From IMG/VR virus record IMGVR_UViG_3300050821_004285, positions 1 to 61,648 of that record: 61,648 bases of DNA; one strand, 5' to 3'. This document shows positions 5,647 to 54,873 of this stretch, piece after piece. The translations under genes were made by a program, and so were the position numbers. The notes under the pieces are model-generated. The model did no database searches. It saw only the letters and a list, made by a program, of their open reading frames with translations, and was not told the origin of the DNA. The first letter of the stretch is position 1; the number at the start of each line of letters is the position of its first letter. Origin of the DNA: a virus.

Positions 5647-5894
5647 CGGTTGTAGTAAACCATCTCGCGATCGATCGAAGGCGGAGGGGGTGCGGGCGGC
5701 TCGACGACCTGCCAGTCGATCTCGAGGACGCCACGGTCGGGCGTGAAGCCGGAGATCTTCCACTTGCAGCCGCACTCGTCGCACTTGATGACAGCACCCA
5801 CCTGCAGCTCCACACCGAAGAGGGCTCTCGCGGCATTGGGTGTCCTCGGCAGCGGGCAGTGGTGCGGAGGCTCAGGGTTGCTTATGAGCTTCAT
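5643..5894 (-). CDS. small zinc-binding protein (83 aa)
   Basis: Starts with ATG overlapping the primase-polymerase stop (ATGA). Contains HHCPLP and CDECGCKW, a probable zinc site, and a proline run (EPPAPPPPS) near the end. Position directly downstream of the primase-polymerase suggests a replication accessory, but this is only context. Confidence 0.6.
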   Translation of the reverse strand: MKLISNPEPPHHCPLPRTPNAARALFGVELQVGAVIKCDECGCKWKISGFTPDRGVLEIDWQVVEPPAPPPPSIDREMVYYNR

Positions 5895-6751
5895 CGGCCC
5901 TGCACCCTTCGGTAGGCGGAGGCGATCGTGGCGAGGATCTCGCCGCGCGGCAGGCCGGCCTCCATGGCGGCCGGGACGAGTTCGGCTTCTGCTTCGGCGA
6001 TGTGCAGCGGCTCCTCCGCGAATTTGCACGCCGCCCACATCAGAGCCTGGTTGCGGTTGCCTTCCTGGGCGTAGCGAACGCTGTTGACGATGCCTGACAT
6101 GTTTCCTCCGCTGCCGTTGAAAGGGATGGTGCTGCCCGGCCGGCTCGTCGCGGGTATCGCCGGCCGGGCAGGCTCTGGGGCGCACAGGTCGAGCAGCCAC
6201 TGCGGGGCCGCCATGATCGGGGCACGGTATTCGACCTCGTACTTGGCTCCGTCGCCCCTGGACGATCCGGGCGCGACGACATAACCGCCATCGTCGCCGC
6301 CGTTGGCCCGGATGTCAACCCAGCCGCGCAGCAGCGACGAGTTCCGCAGCGGCATGTCTTCGGTGTTCCGGTATAGGTAATGCAAACCACCGGAAGGAGT
6401 GCGCACGGTCAGCGTGTCGAATGGGAAGGGCTGCGATACCCGCTCGGCCAGCGCGACGAACACATCGGCGCCGTCGGAACAGTCTTCGAATCCCGCCGGC
6501 TTGACGGGGCTCTTAGGTTTGTCGCAATCGACCACCAGTAGTTTTGACGGCTTGCAAGCCACGCCGATGTTGGCCGTCGGGCATTTTACGCCCCACCAAT
6601 CACGGATAGTCAACTCATCCGTCGTGGCGGCGGCGCCCCAGCGAAGTCTGCCGCTAGGCGTCCAGACGGGGCGCTTGTCGCCAGGCTGGCAGGGAAACAC
6701 GTACAACCCGGCTCGCGCTGCCTTGAGGGCTATCTCTAGCATTGTGGTCAT
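5891..6751 (-). CDS. primase-polymerase (bifunctional DNA primase/polymerase N-terminal domain)
   Basis: 286 residues. The archaeo-eukaryotic primase fold motifs are in order: NIGVAC then LLVVDCDKP (the two metal-binding acidic residues), SGGLHYLYR (the conserved sxH motif), and a VDIRANGGDDGGYVVAPGS block that closes the catalytic domain, the pattern of the Prim-Pol family PF09250. The protein ends soon after this domain plus a helical region, so no helicase domain is fused. It probably makes primers or fills short gaps at the phage origin, with a helicase supplied in trans (compare the RepA-like ATPase at 53.7-54.9 kb and the DUF3631 ATPase at 49-50 kb). Confidence 0.85.
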   Translation of the reverse strand: MTTMLEIALKAARAGLYVFPCQPGDKRPVWTPSGRLRWGAAATTDELTIRDWWGVKCPTANIGVACKPSKLLVVDCDKPKSPVKPAGFEDCSDGADVFVALAERVSQPFPFDTLTVRTPSGGLHYLYRNTEDMPLRNSSLLRGWVDIRANGGDDGGYVVAPGSSRGDGAKYEVEYRAPIMAAPQWLLDLCAPEPARPAIPATSRPGSTIPFNGSGGNMSGIVNSVRYAQEGNRNQALMWAACKFAEEPLHIAEAEAELVPAAMEAGLPRGEILATIASAYRRVQGR

Positions 6752-17795: not shown

Positions 17796-17803
17796 ATCTT
17801 TGC

Positions 17804-17872
17804 GTTACGGCCCGGTCTGGGCATCCGTTACGCCATTTTAGGCTCGTGGCCTGCGGTGTAACGTGTAACGGC
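17804..17872. repeat. dispersed element copy 1 (TGTAACGTGTAACGGC)
   Basis: TGTAACGTGTAACGGC at 17857-17872, preceded by GCGTTACGG (17804-) and CCGTTACG (17826-). The same 16-mer is found at 45,483 and 50,503, each with a CCGTAACGG box about 30 bases upstream. All three lie in intergenic strand-switch or terminator regions. Confidence 0.75.
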
Positions 17873-22244: not shown

Positions 22245-25200
22245 GGCAGCGGCTCCACTTCGACGAACGTCAGGTCGATCTGGCGCAGCGGGTTCGTCTT
22301 GCGCGAATTAGTCGCCAGGATCGTGCGGTCGATCTGAGTGATGCACTGCACCCACCAGGCCTGGTCGATGTCGGACTGCAGGAACAGCGTGCGGTTCGAG
22401 GTGATCAGGTCCATGAAGATCGCGTGGTCTTCCTGGTTCACGGGGATCATCGACAGCGGCAGTAGGTCCGACTTGTAGCCGTCGGTCAGCACCACCGGGT
22501 ACTTCTCACCGAGCGCCTGGAACTGCACGGAACTCGCCTGCAGGGTGACCTTCATGTCCTGCCACTTGACCTTCAGCGGGATGTTGTTCGACGGGTTCGC
22601 GATGTCCTTCAGCCACCAGCTCTGCGCCTTGAACGTCATCGCGTTCGAGTCCGGGCTCCACGGCGACGTGAAGACGTCGCCGTTCAAGCCGAACGACACG
22701 GTTCGCATACGGTACTTGCGGCTCACCAGCGGGATGATCGTGTGGTCCTGGAACACCAGGTACTTGTCCACACCGAAGGACGGCACGTTGGTCTGCGTGC
22801 CGGGCACCGTCTGCCAAGCTCCGAAGCCGCTTCCGTCGCCCGGGTCGTCGGCGTACTGGATCTGCGGGTACGACCACACGGGGTGCGCTGAGGCGGCCGT
22901 GCCGGTCCGGTAGGACGGGTCGGTGCCGAGGTTCATGAAAGCCCTCTGCCAGCCCACCACGTCGCTCGTCGAGTGGTTCGGGGACGCCAGGGTCATGTTG
23001 ATCCTGGTCGTTCCGTCCGGGATGTCGAACTGGGCCGAGCAGTCCGTCAGGGTGCCCGTGGCCACGGCGGGGAAGGATCCGCCCGGAACGGTCTGCTGCG
23101 AGATCAGCGAAGGCCCACGGTAGAACAGGGCCGTGATCAGGGTACTGCCGGCCGAGCTGCCGACGAAGGACGCGCCGATCGTCACCTGGTTCCCGGCCGC
23201 GCCCAGCACCGTCGGATCGACGTTCGACAGGTCTATCGGGGCAGCCAGCGTGGCCGACACGAGTCCGCCGGTCGAGGCCGACGAAGGCTTGATGAGGCCG
23301 ACCCAGGAAGTGGCGACCTGGAACGTGGTAGACGAGGTGGCGGTCACCGACCAGGGCTGCGCCGCGACCGGGCCATTCGAGTCGAACACGGCCAGACCGA
23401 ACGTGTCGGTCGCCCTGCTCGTCTCGTTGCCCGGCGCTCCGGGGATCGAAGTCTGCGGCAGGATGATGCCCACCCAGGCGTCGGCCGTCGCCACCGGGTA
23501 GCTCGTGGTGGCGCTCCCGCCTACCGTGCCCACCGGGATCGGGCCGTTCGAGTCGGACATCATCACGGCGTTGGCGGTGCCGCTCGGGCTTCCGAAGTCG
23601 CCGCTCTGGTACGTGTCCTCGACACGCTGCGTCGAGTTGTTGATGTCCGCTCCGCGACGCGCGCCGATCTGGTTCTCGCCGCCCGTGCTGAGCGAGAAGA
23701 ACGCAGCGACCTGCCAGGCGTTGGCGTTCGTGTTCGTGACGTTCGGAGCCCACATCGTCGGGTAGCTGGCCGCCTGAATGCCGTCCGCGATGAACTGGGA
23801 GCTGGCGGCCGCGCAGTTACGGTAGGCGACGCACTCGGCGATCTTCGGGTACGGGATCGAACTGGAGGCCATCGTGCCCTGCCAAGAGGCAGGCTCGGAG
23901 CTGCCGGCAGTCCTCTTCAGAACCATGAAGGCACCCTGGCCGGCGCCTCCGGTGCCGCCTGTCGTGCTGCCGACCTTCTGCCGAACGATCGTCCACCCTG
24001 TCGGGGCGGTCATCGTGCCCGCATACTCGTCGCAGCTGATCGCGGCGATCATCAGGTCGCCGTTGAGCACGTTCGCCGGCCGGTTGATCGTGTAAGTACT
24101 CGTGCTGTCGTGGCTGATCCACGCCGGAGCCGCGCCCACGTACTGGATCGGGTTGCCGCCAGGCGCCTGGGTGTTGGCCGTGATTGTGGGCGTGCTCGAG
24201 GCGTTCACCGAGAAGACGCTGATACGCCAGGCGTTCGGGTCCGTGTTGATCACGGTCGGCGACGTGAACACAGTCCCGGCGGTGGCCGTGGCGGACTGCG
24301 CCTCTGAGATGAACTGGGCGCTGATGCTCGCAGCCCCCGAGTACGCGACGACGACGGCGCCTCGCTTCACGGAACTGGTCGACAGAGTCCCCGACCAGGT
24401 GCTTGGCTCGGAGCCTCCAGCGGTGCGCGCCAGGACGAACAGGCACATGTCCGTGGAGGACTTGTGCACGGTCGAGGAGTCGATCAGGACCCACCCGGCC
24501 GGGACACTGATCGTCGTGCCGGTAGCGAGCTCGGTGGTGACGAACGCGACCATCAGATCGTTCGTGGTCACGCCGGCCGGCTTGTTCAGCGTGTACGTGT
24601 TGTTGCTCGACGAGTCCGTGAAGACGGTGCCCACGGCGCGCAAGGCGATACTGGCCGAGGTGCCCGCGTATGTCATCGTGTTGATGTTCGTGCCGTCGAA
24701 GCCGCTGCCCGTGAAGCCGAACGTGGTGGAGCTGGCGTAGGTGCTGCCGGGGCTCATCACCCACGAGTCGCCGGCCGGCGCCGTCCCCTGGCCGTTCGAA
24801 TACCACGAGTCGAGCAGGTTCTGCGAAGCGTGGCCGCCGCTCGAGAAAGGAGTCTGGTTGCCGTACAGCAGACCCGCGTGCGTCAGGTAGTGGGCCTCGC
24901 TGGCGACGGCGGACTTCACCTGGTAGGTGACGTTCGAGTACACGGCCCCCTGGTTCACGGAAGTATCCGACATCGCCACCTGCATCCACGCGGGCGCGGC
25001 GGCGTCAGCCAGAGCTGTGCTCGTCACCGTGGACAGCAGGTTGTAGTTCGCGTCGAAGTACTCGATCCACATGAACACGGTGCGCCCCGTCACGGCGGCC
25101 AGCATCTGCCCCGTGGCAGTCAGTTGCTGGGCAATACCCACCGAAGCCTGCGCTACCGGGACGAACCCGGTCGTGATCGACATGTCGCCGTTGGCCGTCG

Positions 25201-45108: not shown

Positions 45109-45426
45109 CTACCATGCTCGCGTGTTGCGTCCCTCTGCGAAGGTAGAACCCTGACTCGCGCGCCCTGCGTTAGTGATGGCCGCGCCACCCTGACTGTTGC
45201 ACCGACGGTGCGCCGGACGTAGGTTGGCCACGTCGTACGGATCACCACCCTGCGACAGTGGTGTGACGTGGTCCAACGTCCATGACCATCTGTCTGTGTG
45301 GTGAAGCGACTGATCTATGTCCTCACCACAGCGCCAGCACACGCTAGGCAGTGCTAGCCGTAGCCGTGCTGACAGTGCGCGCCAACGTGCGTCAGAGCGG
45401 CCCTGTGAGCCGAGCGGCTTAGACAT
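45109..45426 (-). CDS. HNH endonuclease
   Basis: 105 residues from ATG 45426, with AGG eight bases upstream. A basic N-terminal helix (DARWRALSARLRLAL) then CWRCGEDI, WSWTLDHVTPLSQGG and DPYDVANLRPAHRRCNSQGG give the complete HNH zinc nuclease motif. HNH proteins coded beside terminase in siphoviruses assist genome-end cleavage; its position next to the repeat cluster supports that role, with homing as the alternative. Confidence 0.85.
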   Translation of the reverse strand: MSKPLGSQGRSDARWRALSARLRLALPSVCWRCGEDIDQSLHHTDRWSWTLDHVTPLSQGGDPYDVANLRPAHRRCNSQGGAAITNAGRASQGSTFAEGRNTRAW

Positions 45427-45447
45427 GCACACCTACCTCACCCATGC

Positions 45448-45498
45448 GTGCCGTAACGGCAGGATGGCGCTCTGACCTGCGATGTAACGTGTAACGGC
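45448..45498. repeat. dispersed element copy 2
   Basis: GTGCCGTAACGGC (45448-45460) and, 32 bases further from the core box, TGACCTG then TGTAACGTGTAACGGC (45483-45498). The arrangement matches copy 3 at 50468-50518 almost box for box. Confidence 0.8.
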
Positions 45499-45890
45499 TA
45501 GGTGGCCACGATACCGACGCTGTGTAGCGATCGATCGTCCAATATTCGTCACGCTGAGCAAAGCAGCACACGAATCTCGCAGGTAGACGCCATCTGCACG
45601 AACGTGAAGTATTACGGTTCGATAACGACGGCCCGTCTGAGAGGCACTCTCGGCCGGGCCGACTAACGTGGGTGCCACAACTCCACAGGGCGAGCAAGGC
45701 GGAACCGGGAATGCACCGGCGCAGCGCAGCAAACGCAGCGAAATCCGCCCGCGAGGGTCCCCAGGAACCTGACGGCAGCCGCTAGCGACGGAACGCTCTC
45801 CCCACGAAATAGCATCGCAGATCGCTGACAAGGCGAGCGGACGGGCACGTGCCGTGTGCGATGCTGGTTTGGCCCACCTACGGGCCGCGC

Positions 45891-45957
45891 GGCAGTGAGC
45901 TAAGCGACGCGGGTCGCAGCGAGAGTAAGCATGCTGGTTCAACTCCAGCCATTGCCA
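45891..45957 (+). other. tRNA-like element with intact acceptor and T-arm only
   Basis: GGCAGTG (45891-45897) pairs with CATTGCC (45950-45956, one G-U). A perfect T-arm GCTGG-TTCAACT-CCAGC lies at 45933-45949. The 35 bases between acceptor and T-arm are too short and do not form a normal D-arm and anticodon arm. It is a decayed tRNA, a tRNA mimic, or a piece of host tRNA captured at an attachment site. Confidence 0.4.
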
Positions 45958-46091
45958 CGAGACCAAAGACAGCAGGATGCGGGTGAAACTCCCCTACCGT
46001 TAGGCGCGACCGGCTTAGACGCCAACAGCGCTGGGGACGGGTGACGTCAGGCCTCTTATGCAAGGCAACTACGATACCGAAAGGCAGTACC

Positions 46092-48961: not shown

Positions 48962-50077
48962 GTGACACTGGGACGTAAGAAGCCTGAGACGCCCACGATC
49001 GAACAGGTGACGACGTACGTGCTCGATGAGCTTTGTAAGCTCTTTGACACGTACATCGTCTTCCCGTCGGACGAGCACCGTGACGCGGTCGTGCTGTGGG
49101 TGGCGCACTCGCACGTGTTCGAAGCCTTCGATACCACGCCGCGCCTGTCGGTGTTCAGCGTCGAGCCGGGCAGCGGCAAAACCATGGTGCTGAACCTGGT
49201 TCAGGGTACTGCGAAGAACGGTTGGGAGGCCTCTGCGACCATCACGCCCGCCGTCGTGTGGCGTCTCTTTGAGAACTACAAGCCGACCCTGATCCTCGAC
49301 GAAGTGGACACCATCTTCGGGCGCAACGGGTCGTCGTCGTCGCACCAGACTCTCAGGGGCGTGATAAACGCTGGGCACACGCGCGGCGGCGTGGTGCTGC
49401 GCAGCGTCGGCAGCAGCGACGTAAAGCAGTTCTCTGTGTTCGGCCCGATGGCGCTCGGCGGACTTGGCAAGGTCCCTGAGACGATCGAGACGCGGTCCGT
49501 GCCCATCCCCATGGTGAAGCGGAAGGAAGGGTCCCGTAAGGTGAAGCCGTTCCGGCTGCGCACCGCTGGCGAGCGCATGGCCGCCGTGAAGGGCAAGCTT
49601 GAAGGGTGGTCGGTGGCCGCATGGCCCAAGTTGCTCGTGGCCGAGACTGAACTCCCCTTCCCGGACCGTCGCGCAGACGTCTGGGAGCCGCTTGTGGCGA
49701 TCGGCAACCTTGCGGGCGACGGTTGGCAGCAACGCGCGTGGAAGGCGTGCAAGACCATCACGGACGAGCAGGCCAAGAAGCAGAGGTCTGCGACGGGCGT
49801 CCAGCTTCTGCGGGACATCAGGGCCGTGATAGGCATGCGTGAGAACATGTTCACGGCCGAGCTGCAGACGGCCCTGCTCGGCTTGCCGGACACCGTGTGG
49901 ACTCCGGACAACATCGAAGCGCGGCGTCTGTGGCGCGTGCTCGCAGAGTTCGGAGTCGGTCCGGCCACGATCAGGCGCGGCGACAAGGTTGCCAAGGGTG
50001 TGAAGGCGTCAGCGTTCGCTGACGCTTGGAAGCTGTACCTGCCGGAGTCCGCTCCGGCCGAAAAGGAAGAGGCCTGA
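48962..50077 (+). CDS. DUF3631-domain ATPase, replication helicase-like
   Basis: 371 residues from a GTG abutting the previous stop. Walker A SVEPGSGKT (residues about 66-74), Walker B LILDEVDTIF (about 110), sensor-like SVFGPMALGGLGKVPETIETRSVPIPM, and the DUF3631 block FRLRTAGERMAAVKGKLEGW. A winged-helix-like end (TPDNIEARRLWRVLAEFGVGP) follows. DUF3631 proteins accompany primases in mobile elements and phages and probably move or load on DNA. It is the largest gene in the plus operon. Confidence 0.8.
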   Translation: MTLGRKKPETPTIEQVTTYVLDELCKLFDTYIVFPSDEHRDAVVLWVAHSHVFEAFDTTPRLSVFSVEPGSGKTMVLNLVQGTAKNGWEASATITPAVVWRLFENYKPTLILDEVDTIFGRNGSSSSHQTLRGVINAGHTRGGVVLRSVGSSDVKQFSVFGPMALGGLGKVPETIETRSVPIPMVKRKEGSRKVKPFRLRTAGERMAAVKGKLEGWSVAAWPKLLVAETELPFPDRRADVWEPLVAIGNLAGDGWQQRAWKACKTITDEQAKKQRSATGVQLLRDIRAVIGMRENMFTAELQTALLGLPDTVWTPDNIEARRLWRVLAEFGVGPATIRRGDKVAKGVKASAFADAWKLYLPESAPAEKEEA

Positions 50078-50416: not shown

Positions 50417-50422
50417 CCTGAG

Positions 50423-50459
50423 CGCCCCCGTGGCAGCCGTTACGGCCGCCACGGGGGCG
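50423..50459 (+). terminator. terminator of the plus operon
   Basis: CGCCCCCGTGGC / GCCACGGGGGCG, perfect 12-bp stem, followed by TTTCTGC. The 13-base loop contains CCGTTACGG, the inverted form of the box found in the dispersed elements, so the loop may double as a binding site. Confidence 0.85.
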
Positions 50460-50467
50460 TTTCTGCG

Positions 50468-50518
50468 TGCCGTAACGGCTTCGCGGCCGTGCTGACCTGG
50501 CCTGTAACGTGTAACGGC
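50468..50518. repeat. dispersed element copy 3
   Basis: GTGCCGTAACGGC (50468-50480), TGACCTGG, then TGTAACGTGTAACGGC (50503-50518). Same order and nearly the same spacing (33 bases) as copy 2. It lies just behind the plus-operon terminator. Confidence 0.8.
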
Positions 50519-50550
50519 TGATGTCTCCGCATGCTGTACGCAGCGTGACT

Positions 50551-50597
50551 GCCCCCGTCCCCTCTGCCGTCTGGCAGTGTGGGGGCGGGGCGTTTTT
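50551..50597 (+). terminator. second terminator behind the plus operon
   Basis: A long GC hairpin: CTGCC/GGCAG at the tip with CCCC/GGGG runs below it, then GTTTTTGCG. It backs up the terminator at 50423-50459. Confidence 0.7.
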
Positions 50598-51082
50598 GCG
50601 TCCAGACGGCTCTCAGCGCCACCGTGAGCGGCCTTGACCCCCTGGGTCGGTGTGGTTGCACCGGGGCGGGGCTGCTGGGCCGTTAGGACGGCTCTCCGGC
50701 GGTTTCGCCACGATGACCGGTGGGTCGCGCTGCGCTGAATGCGCCGGAGACGGCCCTGAGCGGCGCTGTGAGCGCTCTGCGGCGGCCGGGCCGTGTGACC
50801 GTACGACGGGCGTAGGCCACGGCCCTACGCGGCCGCTCCGCCGCTCTCGTCCCTGACGATTGGCGGCGTGTGCGTCGGTGGACAGCGGAGCGGCCGCGAG
50901 TCTCTACCCTTCTATTAGCAAGGCTACGGTTTCCGTGTCGGTCATCTGATACACCTCCCTTCGGAAGTGTATGCGCACCCTGCGACGGTGGCAGGGTGCT
51001 GACTCAGGGCCCTGACACGTCAGGGTTCGATGACTTCTCATCTGCGCAGCCGTGAAGGTGTCGGCCGGCCCGCATGAATATG

Positions 51083-51114
51083 TCTCGACGTCAAGATTCT
51101 CGACGTGAAGATTC
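51083..51114. repeat. tandem TCTCGACGT repeat
   Basis: TCTCGACGTCAAGATTC (51083-51099) and TCTCGACGTGAAGATTC (51098-51114), two 17-bp copies with one mismatch and a 15-bp period, 50 bases before the AGCGCT array. Confidence 0.7.
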
Positions 51115-51163
51115 TTCGCGCCGAGATGTGTGTACTGCTCACCTAGTCATTATGTCATTTCAT

Positions 51164-51220
51164 AGCGCTATAGCGCTGTCATTAGCGCTTATCATAGCGC
51201 TTTTTCATAGCGCTAGCGCT
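51164..51220. repeat. AT-rich AGCGCT palindrome array, candidate replication origin
   Basis: AGCGCT starts at 51164, 51172, 51184, 51196, 51209 and 51215, most spaced near one helical turn, interleaved with TCAT or ATCAT boxes that continue on both sides (51147-51253). The stretch is strikingly AT-rich for this genome and lies in a gap with no promoter-proximal gene, which fits an origin or a protein-loading site. Confidence 0.6.
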
Positions 51221-51263
51221 TGTCATTTTTTCAGGTCATAACACTAAATCATAACACTTTTAG

Positions 51264-51332
51264 TGGCTAGAGGGGATCAAACCTTCGACCTTCCGCTCTT
51301 CAGGCGGACGCTCTGCCAACTAAGCTCTAGCC
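51264..51332 (-). tRNA. tRNA-Phe (GAA), compact 69-nt form
   Basis: Anticodon arm TCCGC-CTGAAGA-GCGGA (anticodon GAA). D-arm GCTT-AGTTGGCA-GAGC. T-loop TTTGATC. If the T-stem is five pairs (GAAGG/CCCTC, one mismatch) the acceptor has only five pairs (GGCTA/TAGCC); a seven-pair acceptor (GGCTAGA/TCTAGCC) would shorten the T-stem to three. CCA is not encoded. The gene is two to four bases shorter than normal. Confidence 0.7.
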
Positions 51333-51411: not shown

Positions 51412-51489
51412 TGGTAGCGGAGGCCGGACTCGAACCGGCACCACAGGCCTTACGAGGGCCTCGCTCTTCCAATTGAGGCGTACTCCGCG
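51412..51489 (-). tRNA. tRNA-Thr (CGT)
   Basis: Anticodon arm AGGCC-CTCGTAA-GGCCT (anticodon CGT), T-arm GCCGG-TTCGAGT-CCGGC, acceptor CGCGGAG/CTCCGCT with a mismatch at the first pair, discriminator A and an encoded CCA. The D-arm is unusual (CGC.../...GCG, long loop CTCAATTGGAAGA). It reads ACG, a frequent Thr codon in high-GC genes. Confidence 0.75.
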
Positions 51490-51770: not shown

Positions 51771-51800
51771 ATCATAGTGCTGACAAGCGTGCTGTGTCAA
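51771..51800 (-). promoter_or_regulatory. sigma70-type promoter driving the tRNA genes
   Basis: On the minus strand TTGACA (51800-51795), 18-base spacer, TATGAT (51776-51771). A perfect -35 and five of six -10 matches is the best promoter in the window. Start of transcription near 51763, about 270 bases before tRNA-Thr. Confidence 0.8.
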
Positions 51801-53682: not shown

Positions 53683-54873
53683 CTACACCTCGTCGAAGAT
53701 GGTGGGGGCGGCTTCGTCGTCCTGCTTCTTGGACCACTCGACGTACTGCCGTCCGGCTTCGATGATCATGAGACGGCCTCCGATCATCACTCCGGACTCG
53801 GACTGGCGGCCTCCGAGATGGGTCACGTAGTTGTGCTTCACGACGTGGTCGATGGCACGGTAGGCGTCGCGCCGACTGCAGCTGATGTGCAGCGACGAGG
53901 CGGCTTCGAGAATGCCGTCCTTGAGTTCCGGTTTAGTCAAGCCGGTGGTGCCGACATCGACGAGTTGGGCAAGCGCGGAATGCACGATACGACGGAAGTG
54001 TTCGTCGTCCAATCGTTTGAATCCCATATCCTCGGCCTCGGCGATAACCCCCATATCGACAGTCAGGGAATCCAATGTCGGCGTCAGATCGAGATTGAGA
54101 ACCTCACCCGATTCGGTGTCCTTCTGCTTCTCGATAAGCAACTCGCATTGCAATGTGGTATTCTCTGGCCGCTTCAGGATGTGAATGGTGTCGGCTGCGC
54201 CGTAGATAGAGCCGGAGCCGCGCATGGGCGAGCCGGCCTTCGAGCTGTGGTGGATCGTGAGGACCGTGCAGCCGGCCTCGTTGGCGAGGTGCCCGACCAG
54301 GGTGACGAACCGGTCCATCTCGCCCTTATCGTTCTCGTTCGCCCCCGGCGTGGCACGCGCCTGGGTGTCGATGACCAGAAGGTCGAAGCCGTGTCGCTCC
54401 ACGGCCGCGACAAGATGAAGCCGTGTAGCCGTGTCGAGCAGATCGGCCGGCCTCATCACGGTGAACTGGTCGTCCACTTCGACACCGCGAGCATGCTCCC
54501 AAGCGTCAACGCGCTTCGACATGCCGCCCATGCCTTCGCCGACCAGGTATAGCACGGCGCCCTGCTTCACCGGGTGGCCGAGCCACGACCTCCCCATAGC
54601 CACGGAGAGCGCCCAGTCGAGGGCGACGAAGGACTTGTACGTCCCGGAGTCTCCGACGAGCCACGCGGCCGTCCCCTGGTACAGGATGTTGCCGCCTATC
54701 AGTTCGGCCGGCGCTTCGATGTCACGCAGCTGCGTGCGGCTCAGGAACCGGGCAGCCTCCCAGTCCTCTTGGCCGTCTTGCTGTGAGGAAACCTCCACAC
54801 CAGGCGGCTCTGTATGTAGGTTTCGGTTCGCCTCGTCAAGCTGGCCGCGCAGTTCCTCGACCGACAGTGTCAC
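53683..54873 (-). CDS. RepA-like hexameric helicase / AAA_25 ATPase
   Basis: 396 residues. RecA-fold core: Walker A GDSGTYKS (about 74-81), GAVLYLVGEGMGGMSKRVDAW, Walker B FDLLVIDTQARATPG, then TVLTIHHSSKAGSPMRGSGSIYGAADT, the H-x-x-K sensor strand typical of RSF1010 RepA and related AAA_25 helicases. A C-terminal winged helix (LTKPELKDGILEAASSLHISCSRRDAYRAIDHVV) follows. It is probably the replicative helicase partner of the primase-polymerase, although 47 kb away. Confidence 0.85.
   Translation of the reverse strand: MTLSVEELRGQLDEANRNLHTEPPGVEVSSQQDGQEDWEAARFLSRTQLRDIEAPAELIGGNILYQGTAAWLVGDSGTYKSFVALDWALSVAMGRSWLGHPVKQGAVLYLVGEGMGGMSKRVDAWEHARGVEVDDQFTVMRPADLLDTATRLHLVAAVERHGFDLLVIDTQARATPGANENDKGEMDRFVTLVGHLANEAGCTVLTIHHSSKAGSPMRGSGSIYGAADTIHILKRPENTTLQCELLIEKQKDTESGEVLNLDLTPTLDSLTVDMGVIAEAEDMGFKRLDDEHFRRIVHSALAQLVDVGTTGLTKPELKDGILEAASSLHISCSRRDAYRAIDHVVKHNYVTHLGGRQSESGVMIGGRLMIIEAGRQYVEWSKKQDDEAAPTIFDEV

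Follow-up and report, generated by a model that had tools for sequence, protein, structure and literature searches.

The question raised by this locus is what function is served by a dense cluster of short repeats between two converging transcription units of a GC-rich phage. The window analysed here is the whole of the viral record IMGVR_UViG_3300050821_004285 (61,648 nucleotides, 65% GC), and the cluster lies in its last fifth, where a first-pass annotation had proposed a replication origin. The array is real, and we infer that it looks most like a start site of DNA replication. To our knowledge, lytic origins of Actinobacteria phages have been little mapped.

The six AGCGCT hexamers that had been described were all found at exactly the positions given for them, starting at 51164, 51172, 51184, 51196, 51209 and 51215. 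The start-to-start intervals are 8, 12, 12, 13 and 6 bp, and three of the five thus fit the description "mostly 12-13 bp apart". The palindromes had also been said to stand at helical spacing, which was not upheld, since a step of 12-13 bp does not match the helical turn. TCAT boxes are indeed interleaved with the hexamers, with nine copies at 51147-51252 (starting at 51147, 51155, 51160, 51179, 51192, 51205, 51223, 51236 and 51249). The 13-bp TCAT-led units form two runs of three (51179/51192/51205 and 51223/51236/51249), and the second run, which consists of TCATTTTTTCAGG, TCATAACACTAAA and TCATAACACTTTT, is without AGCGCT; the hexamer is therefore the most frequent core of a repeat somewhat wider than itself. 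The full repeat unit is TCATAGCGCT, and two degenerate copies, TCATAACACT, at 51236 and 51249 had been overlooked in the first reading. A better description of the array is therefore a direct repeat of TCAT-AGCGCT-N3 with a 13-bp phase, accompanied by these two degenerate copies. The features of the array and its left edge are as follows.

51083-51112, plus strand: tandem 15-bp direct repeat, TCTCGACGTCAAGAT / TCTCGACGTGAAGAT, just outside the array on its left side
51147-51258, no strand: core array of nine TCAT boxes, six AGCGCT hexamers and two TCATAACACT copies
51160, 51192 and 51205 (span 51160-51220), plus strand: exact TCATAGCGCT units, from a PWM scan
51168 (CTATAGCGCT), 51180 (CATTAGCGCT) and 51211 (CGCTAGCGCT), plus strand: related unit copies, from a PWM scan
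51223-51261, plus strand: AT-richest part, TCATTTTTTCAGG-TCATAACACTAAA-TCATAACACTTTT, with 25% GC over 40 bp, the genome minimum; proposed unwinding segment

Genome-wide, AGCGCT is not enriched (24 observed vs 23.6 expected). With six copies in 60 bp, however, it ranks as the most clustered of all 4096 hexamers, a place that it shares with TAGCGC, which overlaps it. When the local sequence was shuffled 2000 times with dinucleotides preserved, no palindromic hexamer was ever present in more than three copies. Autocorrelation was at its maximum at 13 bp, a value reached in 0 of 5000 shuffles at lag 13 and in 24 of 5000 if the highest peak over lags 5-39 was counted. Under a loose definition (10-mers with ≤2 mismatches), the array merely equals seven other stretches in copy number, and these seven sit in or at coding ORFs according to our own gene calls. 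The claim that this is the most AT-rich stretch of a high-GC genome was borne out by both GC content and nearest-neighbour stability: positions 51147-51253 are the lowest-GC 107-bp segment of the genome at 38.3% (44.9% for the next separate segment), and the least stable 100 bp of the genome start at 51188, with a nearest-neighbour energy of -129.6 vs a mean of -158.9 (sd 5.8).

The array is contained in about 850 bp of non-coding DNA in a genome that is otherwise densely coding. Its surroundings, from left to right, are listed here.

48962-50077, plus strand: DUF3631-containing P-loop ATPase, the final large gene in the convergent plus-strand block
50417-51146, no strand: non-coding gap left of the array, 730 bp, with no ORF called coding by a composition screen
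50423-50459 and about 50551-50592: two GC-rich hairpin terminators of the plus-strand genes, at the far end of the left gap
51265-51332, minus strand: tRNA-Phe(GAA), Rfam RF00005, 44.2 bits, anticodon read from the sequence
51412-51489, minus strand: tRNA-Thr(CGU), next beyond tRNA-Phe
51771-51800, minus strand: sigma70-like promoter, TTGACA-18-TATGAT, placed to transcribe both tRNAs toward the array

With plus-strand genes on the left and minus-strand tRNAs on the right, transcription converges on the array from both sides, as had been noted. No coding gene begins from the array on either strand, in agreement with the earlier statement that it is not the promoter region of a gene. The 3' end of tRNA-Phe is 6 bp from the last repeat, and the -10 region of the tRNA promoter, AGCACTATGA, resembles the array unit. 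Nothing besides the tRNAs was found in a search for Rfam-type RNA families. As for the DUF3631 P-loop ATPase, Pseudomonas phage Phipami28 is the only annotated phage with a match, at 30%.

The terminase, portal and protease-capsid fusion of the phage are nearest to those of the Rhodococcus equi cluster CF phages REQ1, Jflix2 and Shagrat and their relative Madraxi, with 41-50% identity. Both replication genes named in the first-pass annotation, a RepA-like helicase and a primase-polymerase, were confirmed by protein family matches and, for the helicase, by a PDB match.

53683-54873, minus strand: RepA-like hexameric helicase (AAA_25), Pfam PF13481, E=1e-37
5891-6751, minus strand: primase-polymerase (Prim-Pol), Pfam PF09250, E=5e-35

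The best PDB match of the helicase is 1g8y, RSF1010 RepA (E=5e-5), and the protein is 29% identical to Shagrat gp98. Its C-terminal region looks winged-helix-like by eye only, and an AF2 model of the helicase built without an alignment had a pLDDT of no more than 35. No Pfam or PHROGs initiator family was matched, and the proteins adjoining the helicase likewise had no match to an initiator. The counterpart of the plus-strand block at 46.6-48.2 kb in the cluster CF phages is their reverse right arm, and this match places the array at the syntenic convergent junction. One contig with 100% identity and two with about 75% nucleotide identity to the phage were found, and the matched stretches end at or before about 45.2 kb, short of the array. 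Because the identical contig (L012) stops at 45157 and a related one (L013) ends close by, the genome probably ends physically at about 45.2-46 kb (45157-46000). The phage record is probably circularly permuted.

The best explanation, which we hold tentatively, is that the array forms the part of the lytic replication origin where repeats are bound and the DNA unwinds. The array combines the lowest GC content and stability of the genome, a 13-bp phase beyond that of shuffles and the long non-coding gap with the lack of any coding gene, on either strand, that it could serve as promoter. The RepA-like helicase, with its match to RSF1010 RepA, and the Prim-Pol are consistent with this explanation, and the AT-rich and repeat-dense junction at the equivalent position in cluster CF phages also counts in its favour. 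Like an iteron-type origin, the locus has several phased direct repeats in non-coding DNA and an adjacent AT-rich, easily melted segment, here the genome minimum. In such an origin, the phased TCATAGCGCT direct repeats at 51160-51220 would be the binding sites of a phage-encoded initiator, perhaps the helicase's own C-terminal region or the product of an unrecognised gene. The adjoining AT-rich 13-mers at 51223-51261 would then melt, exposing single strands onto which the RepA-like hexameric helicase would be loaded, and Prim-Pol would provide the primers.

Against an origin stand the absence of a skew flip, of a DnaA box and of a recognised initiator, the lack of a close relative of this region in any collection searched, the different repeats of the CF phages, and the presence of an AGCGCT array upstream of an HTH-type gene in a further contig. 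GC skew, which had been suggested as a check, gave no support: plus-strand fourfold-site skew keeps its sign at the array (about +0.12 on the left and +0.07 to +0.13 on the right), which is a weak test in a phage. No DnaA box site with ≤1 mismatch was found within 18 kb of the array. A strand-composition switch and DnaA boxes are common at iteron-type origins, though not universal.

The RSF1010 plasmid has a RepA helicase, a RepB' primase, a RepC initiator and iterons of 20 bp. The phage genome resembles this system in encoding a RepA-like hexameric helicase (1g8y match) together with a primase-polymerase, and differs in that no RepC homologue was recognised in the phage and that the units at the array are 10-13 bp, compared with the 20-bp iterons of RSF1010 oriV. 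In RK2 oriV, iterons lie beside AT-rich 13-mers (PMC4081077). As in RK2 oriV and E. coli oriC, tandem AT-rich 13-bp units adjoin direct repeats here, at the place where the duplex of the replicon is least stable; unlike those origins, the array is without DnaA boxes or a recognised TrfA/RepC-like initiator, its 13-mers are loosely alike, and it is a candidate origin.

The junction syntenic to that of the array lies, in Jflix2, Madraxi and Shagrat, downstream of the genes for the helicase and the HNH protein, with the reverse right arm following it. This junction is the most repeat-dense 300 bp of the genome in Jflix2 and Madraxi and the second in Shagrat. REQ1 has no clear AT-rich repeat junction. 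In each of the genomes of Jflix2, Madraxi and Shagrat, the 40-bp patch that ranks lowest or second-lowest in GC is a few hundred bp before the junction repeats and outside them, unlike in the array. The CF junctions therefore resemble the array as convergent junctions after replication genes with an AT-rich patch and dense direct repeats, and differ from it in that their repeats are unrelated in sequence and GC-rich, with inverted copies at the right end of each genome. Unlike in the phage with the array, no tRNA genes were found in either Shagrat or Jflix2. Since Jflix2 is closely related to Madraxi, the three genomes amount to about two independent comparisons; we read them as favouring a cis-acting junction that is AT-rich and bears repeats, and not homology of the array. 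A more general proposal, which we regard as doubtful, is that a CF-like actinobacterial lytic origin could stay in one place, where the transcription units converge behind the replication genes, while its sequence turns over completely, the form found here being a palindrome-containing 13-bp iteron array for a new initiator or for the RepA-like helicase. If such a positional rule (converging units behind RepA-like helicase genes, with an AT-rich patch and repeats) is true, it provides testable origin candidates in the cultured phages Jflix2, Madraxi and Shagrat.

The main rival explanation, somewhat unlikely in our judgement, is that the units, which read AGYGYTATGA on the minus strand, are recognised by a repressor or architectural protein of the phage or host, for control of the tRNA operon or of a non-coding RNA and not for replication. 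The unit contains a -10-like TATGA(T), the -10 of the tRNA-operon promoter carries the related AGCACTATGAT, and AGCGCT direct repeats with a degenerate AGCACT copy are found directly upstream of an HTH-type gene in contig L035; in addition, Rhodococcus phage WC1 has non-coding regions that are strongly transcribed (PMC10986025). However, the array is on the 3' side of the tRNAs and no coding gene lies downstream of it, no strong unit besides the one promoter copy is near other promoters, and a stray copy so near would not be very surprising, with a chance of about 6% by our own estimate from two non-array sites scoring >12. Less probable again are hairpins that stop transcription or guide RNA processing between the convergent units, with the self-complementary AGCGCT copies forming nested stems in either transcript. 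The location at a convergent junction agrees with this, one plus-strand terminator-like site (AGCGCT-N6-AGCGCT-TTTT) is present at 51184-51201, and the RNA folds better than 200 of 200 shuffles on both strands (z of -5.9 for plus and -4.4 for minus), although palindromic repeats fold well whatever their purpose. The tRNA transcripts are on the minus strand, where the stems are without a T-run, transcripts of the plus-strand genes would already meet two strong hairpins 600-700 bp before the array, and hairpins leave the 13-bp direct TCAT phase and the AACACT copies unexplained.

Chance, coding or decayed sequence, in the form of a small membrane peptide ORF or of functionless slippage repeats, has a slim probability. 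The ORF at 51074-51241 (55 aa) spans the array and is open and hydrophobic, but its GC3 is 0.33 vs about 0.7-0.95 in most called genes of the phage, and the exact hexamer clustering and 13-bp phase exceed those of shuffles. In parABS mycobacteriophages, the parS array consists of eight 8-bp direct repeats (PMC7157519). A comparable centromere for the partition of a plasmid-like prophage would agree with a short direct-repeat array in a non-coding gap, as in parS-L and parS-R of RedRock, and with a genome in which no Resolvase or Phage_integrase match was found; yet the RedRock-type unit is 8 bp and needs ParAB, which is absent from the phage genome. No ParB_N or AAA_31 (ParA) match was obtained in the genome, while control genomes did match, which strongly weakens this reading; no repressor was recognised either, and we consider a centromere highly improbable. 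Some further candidates were rejected: an intrinsic terminator of the tRNA operon, since the terminator-like site in the array is on the plus strand only; a phage attachment site, since the genome has no integrase match; and a stoperator or dispersed operators, since strong copies are in the array only, with one weaker copy at 51772 (PWM scan).

Relatives of the array were sought by exact and degenerate pattern scans of viral contigs and GTDB genomes and by blastn of phages and plasmids, and all gave chance or unrelated matches only. The helicase, DUF3631 and glycosyltransferase had no match in the viral contigs, and the helicase alignment reached relatives of ≤40% identity only. Repeats in G013 and G006 were rejected as relatives of the array, being in ORF-dense DNA and unlike it, and a scan with the GTAACG pattern as a route to relatives yielded two unrelated contigs. 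Contig L035 (73% GC) has four tandem TTTTAACTAGCGCTG repeats and the degenerate copy at 6425-6500. These are likely an operator array, with the HTH assignment made by eye, and repeats and AT-richness alone do not, for this reason, mean an origin.

GTAACG/CGTTAC is present 15 times in the phage genome, and 11 of the copies make up three non-coding clusters (17803-17872, 45453-45498 and 50438-50518). The layout is GTAACG-N24/25-TGTAACGTGTAACGGC with near-constant spacing, and the upstream site is inverted at 17.8 kb. Two of the clusters (45.45-45.50 and 50.44-50.52 kb) flank the plus-strand right-arm block. The clusters are likely a multi-locus regulatory, packaging or replication site. The reverse right-arm genes of Jflix2 and Shagrat are flanked by large, inverted repeat arrays of the same family (L031:21016-21490 and 23731-23831; L029:21496-21952 and 23600-24060), and Jflix2 gp103 and Madraxi gp105, which are annotated as genes across such repeats, may not be real. 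Since inverted copies of the CF junction repeats are also present at the right genome end, these repeats may correspond to the GTAACG clusters of this phage and not to the array. Arrays of GTAACG/TGTAACG were also found in unrelated viral contigs, as short stretches ahead of ORFs (L168:2060-2170 and L169:186-312), and this recurrence suggests a recurrent type of operator or iteron.
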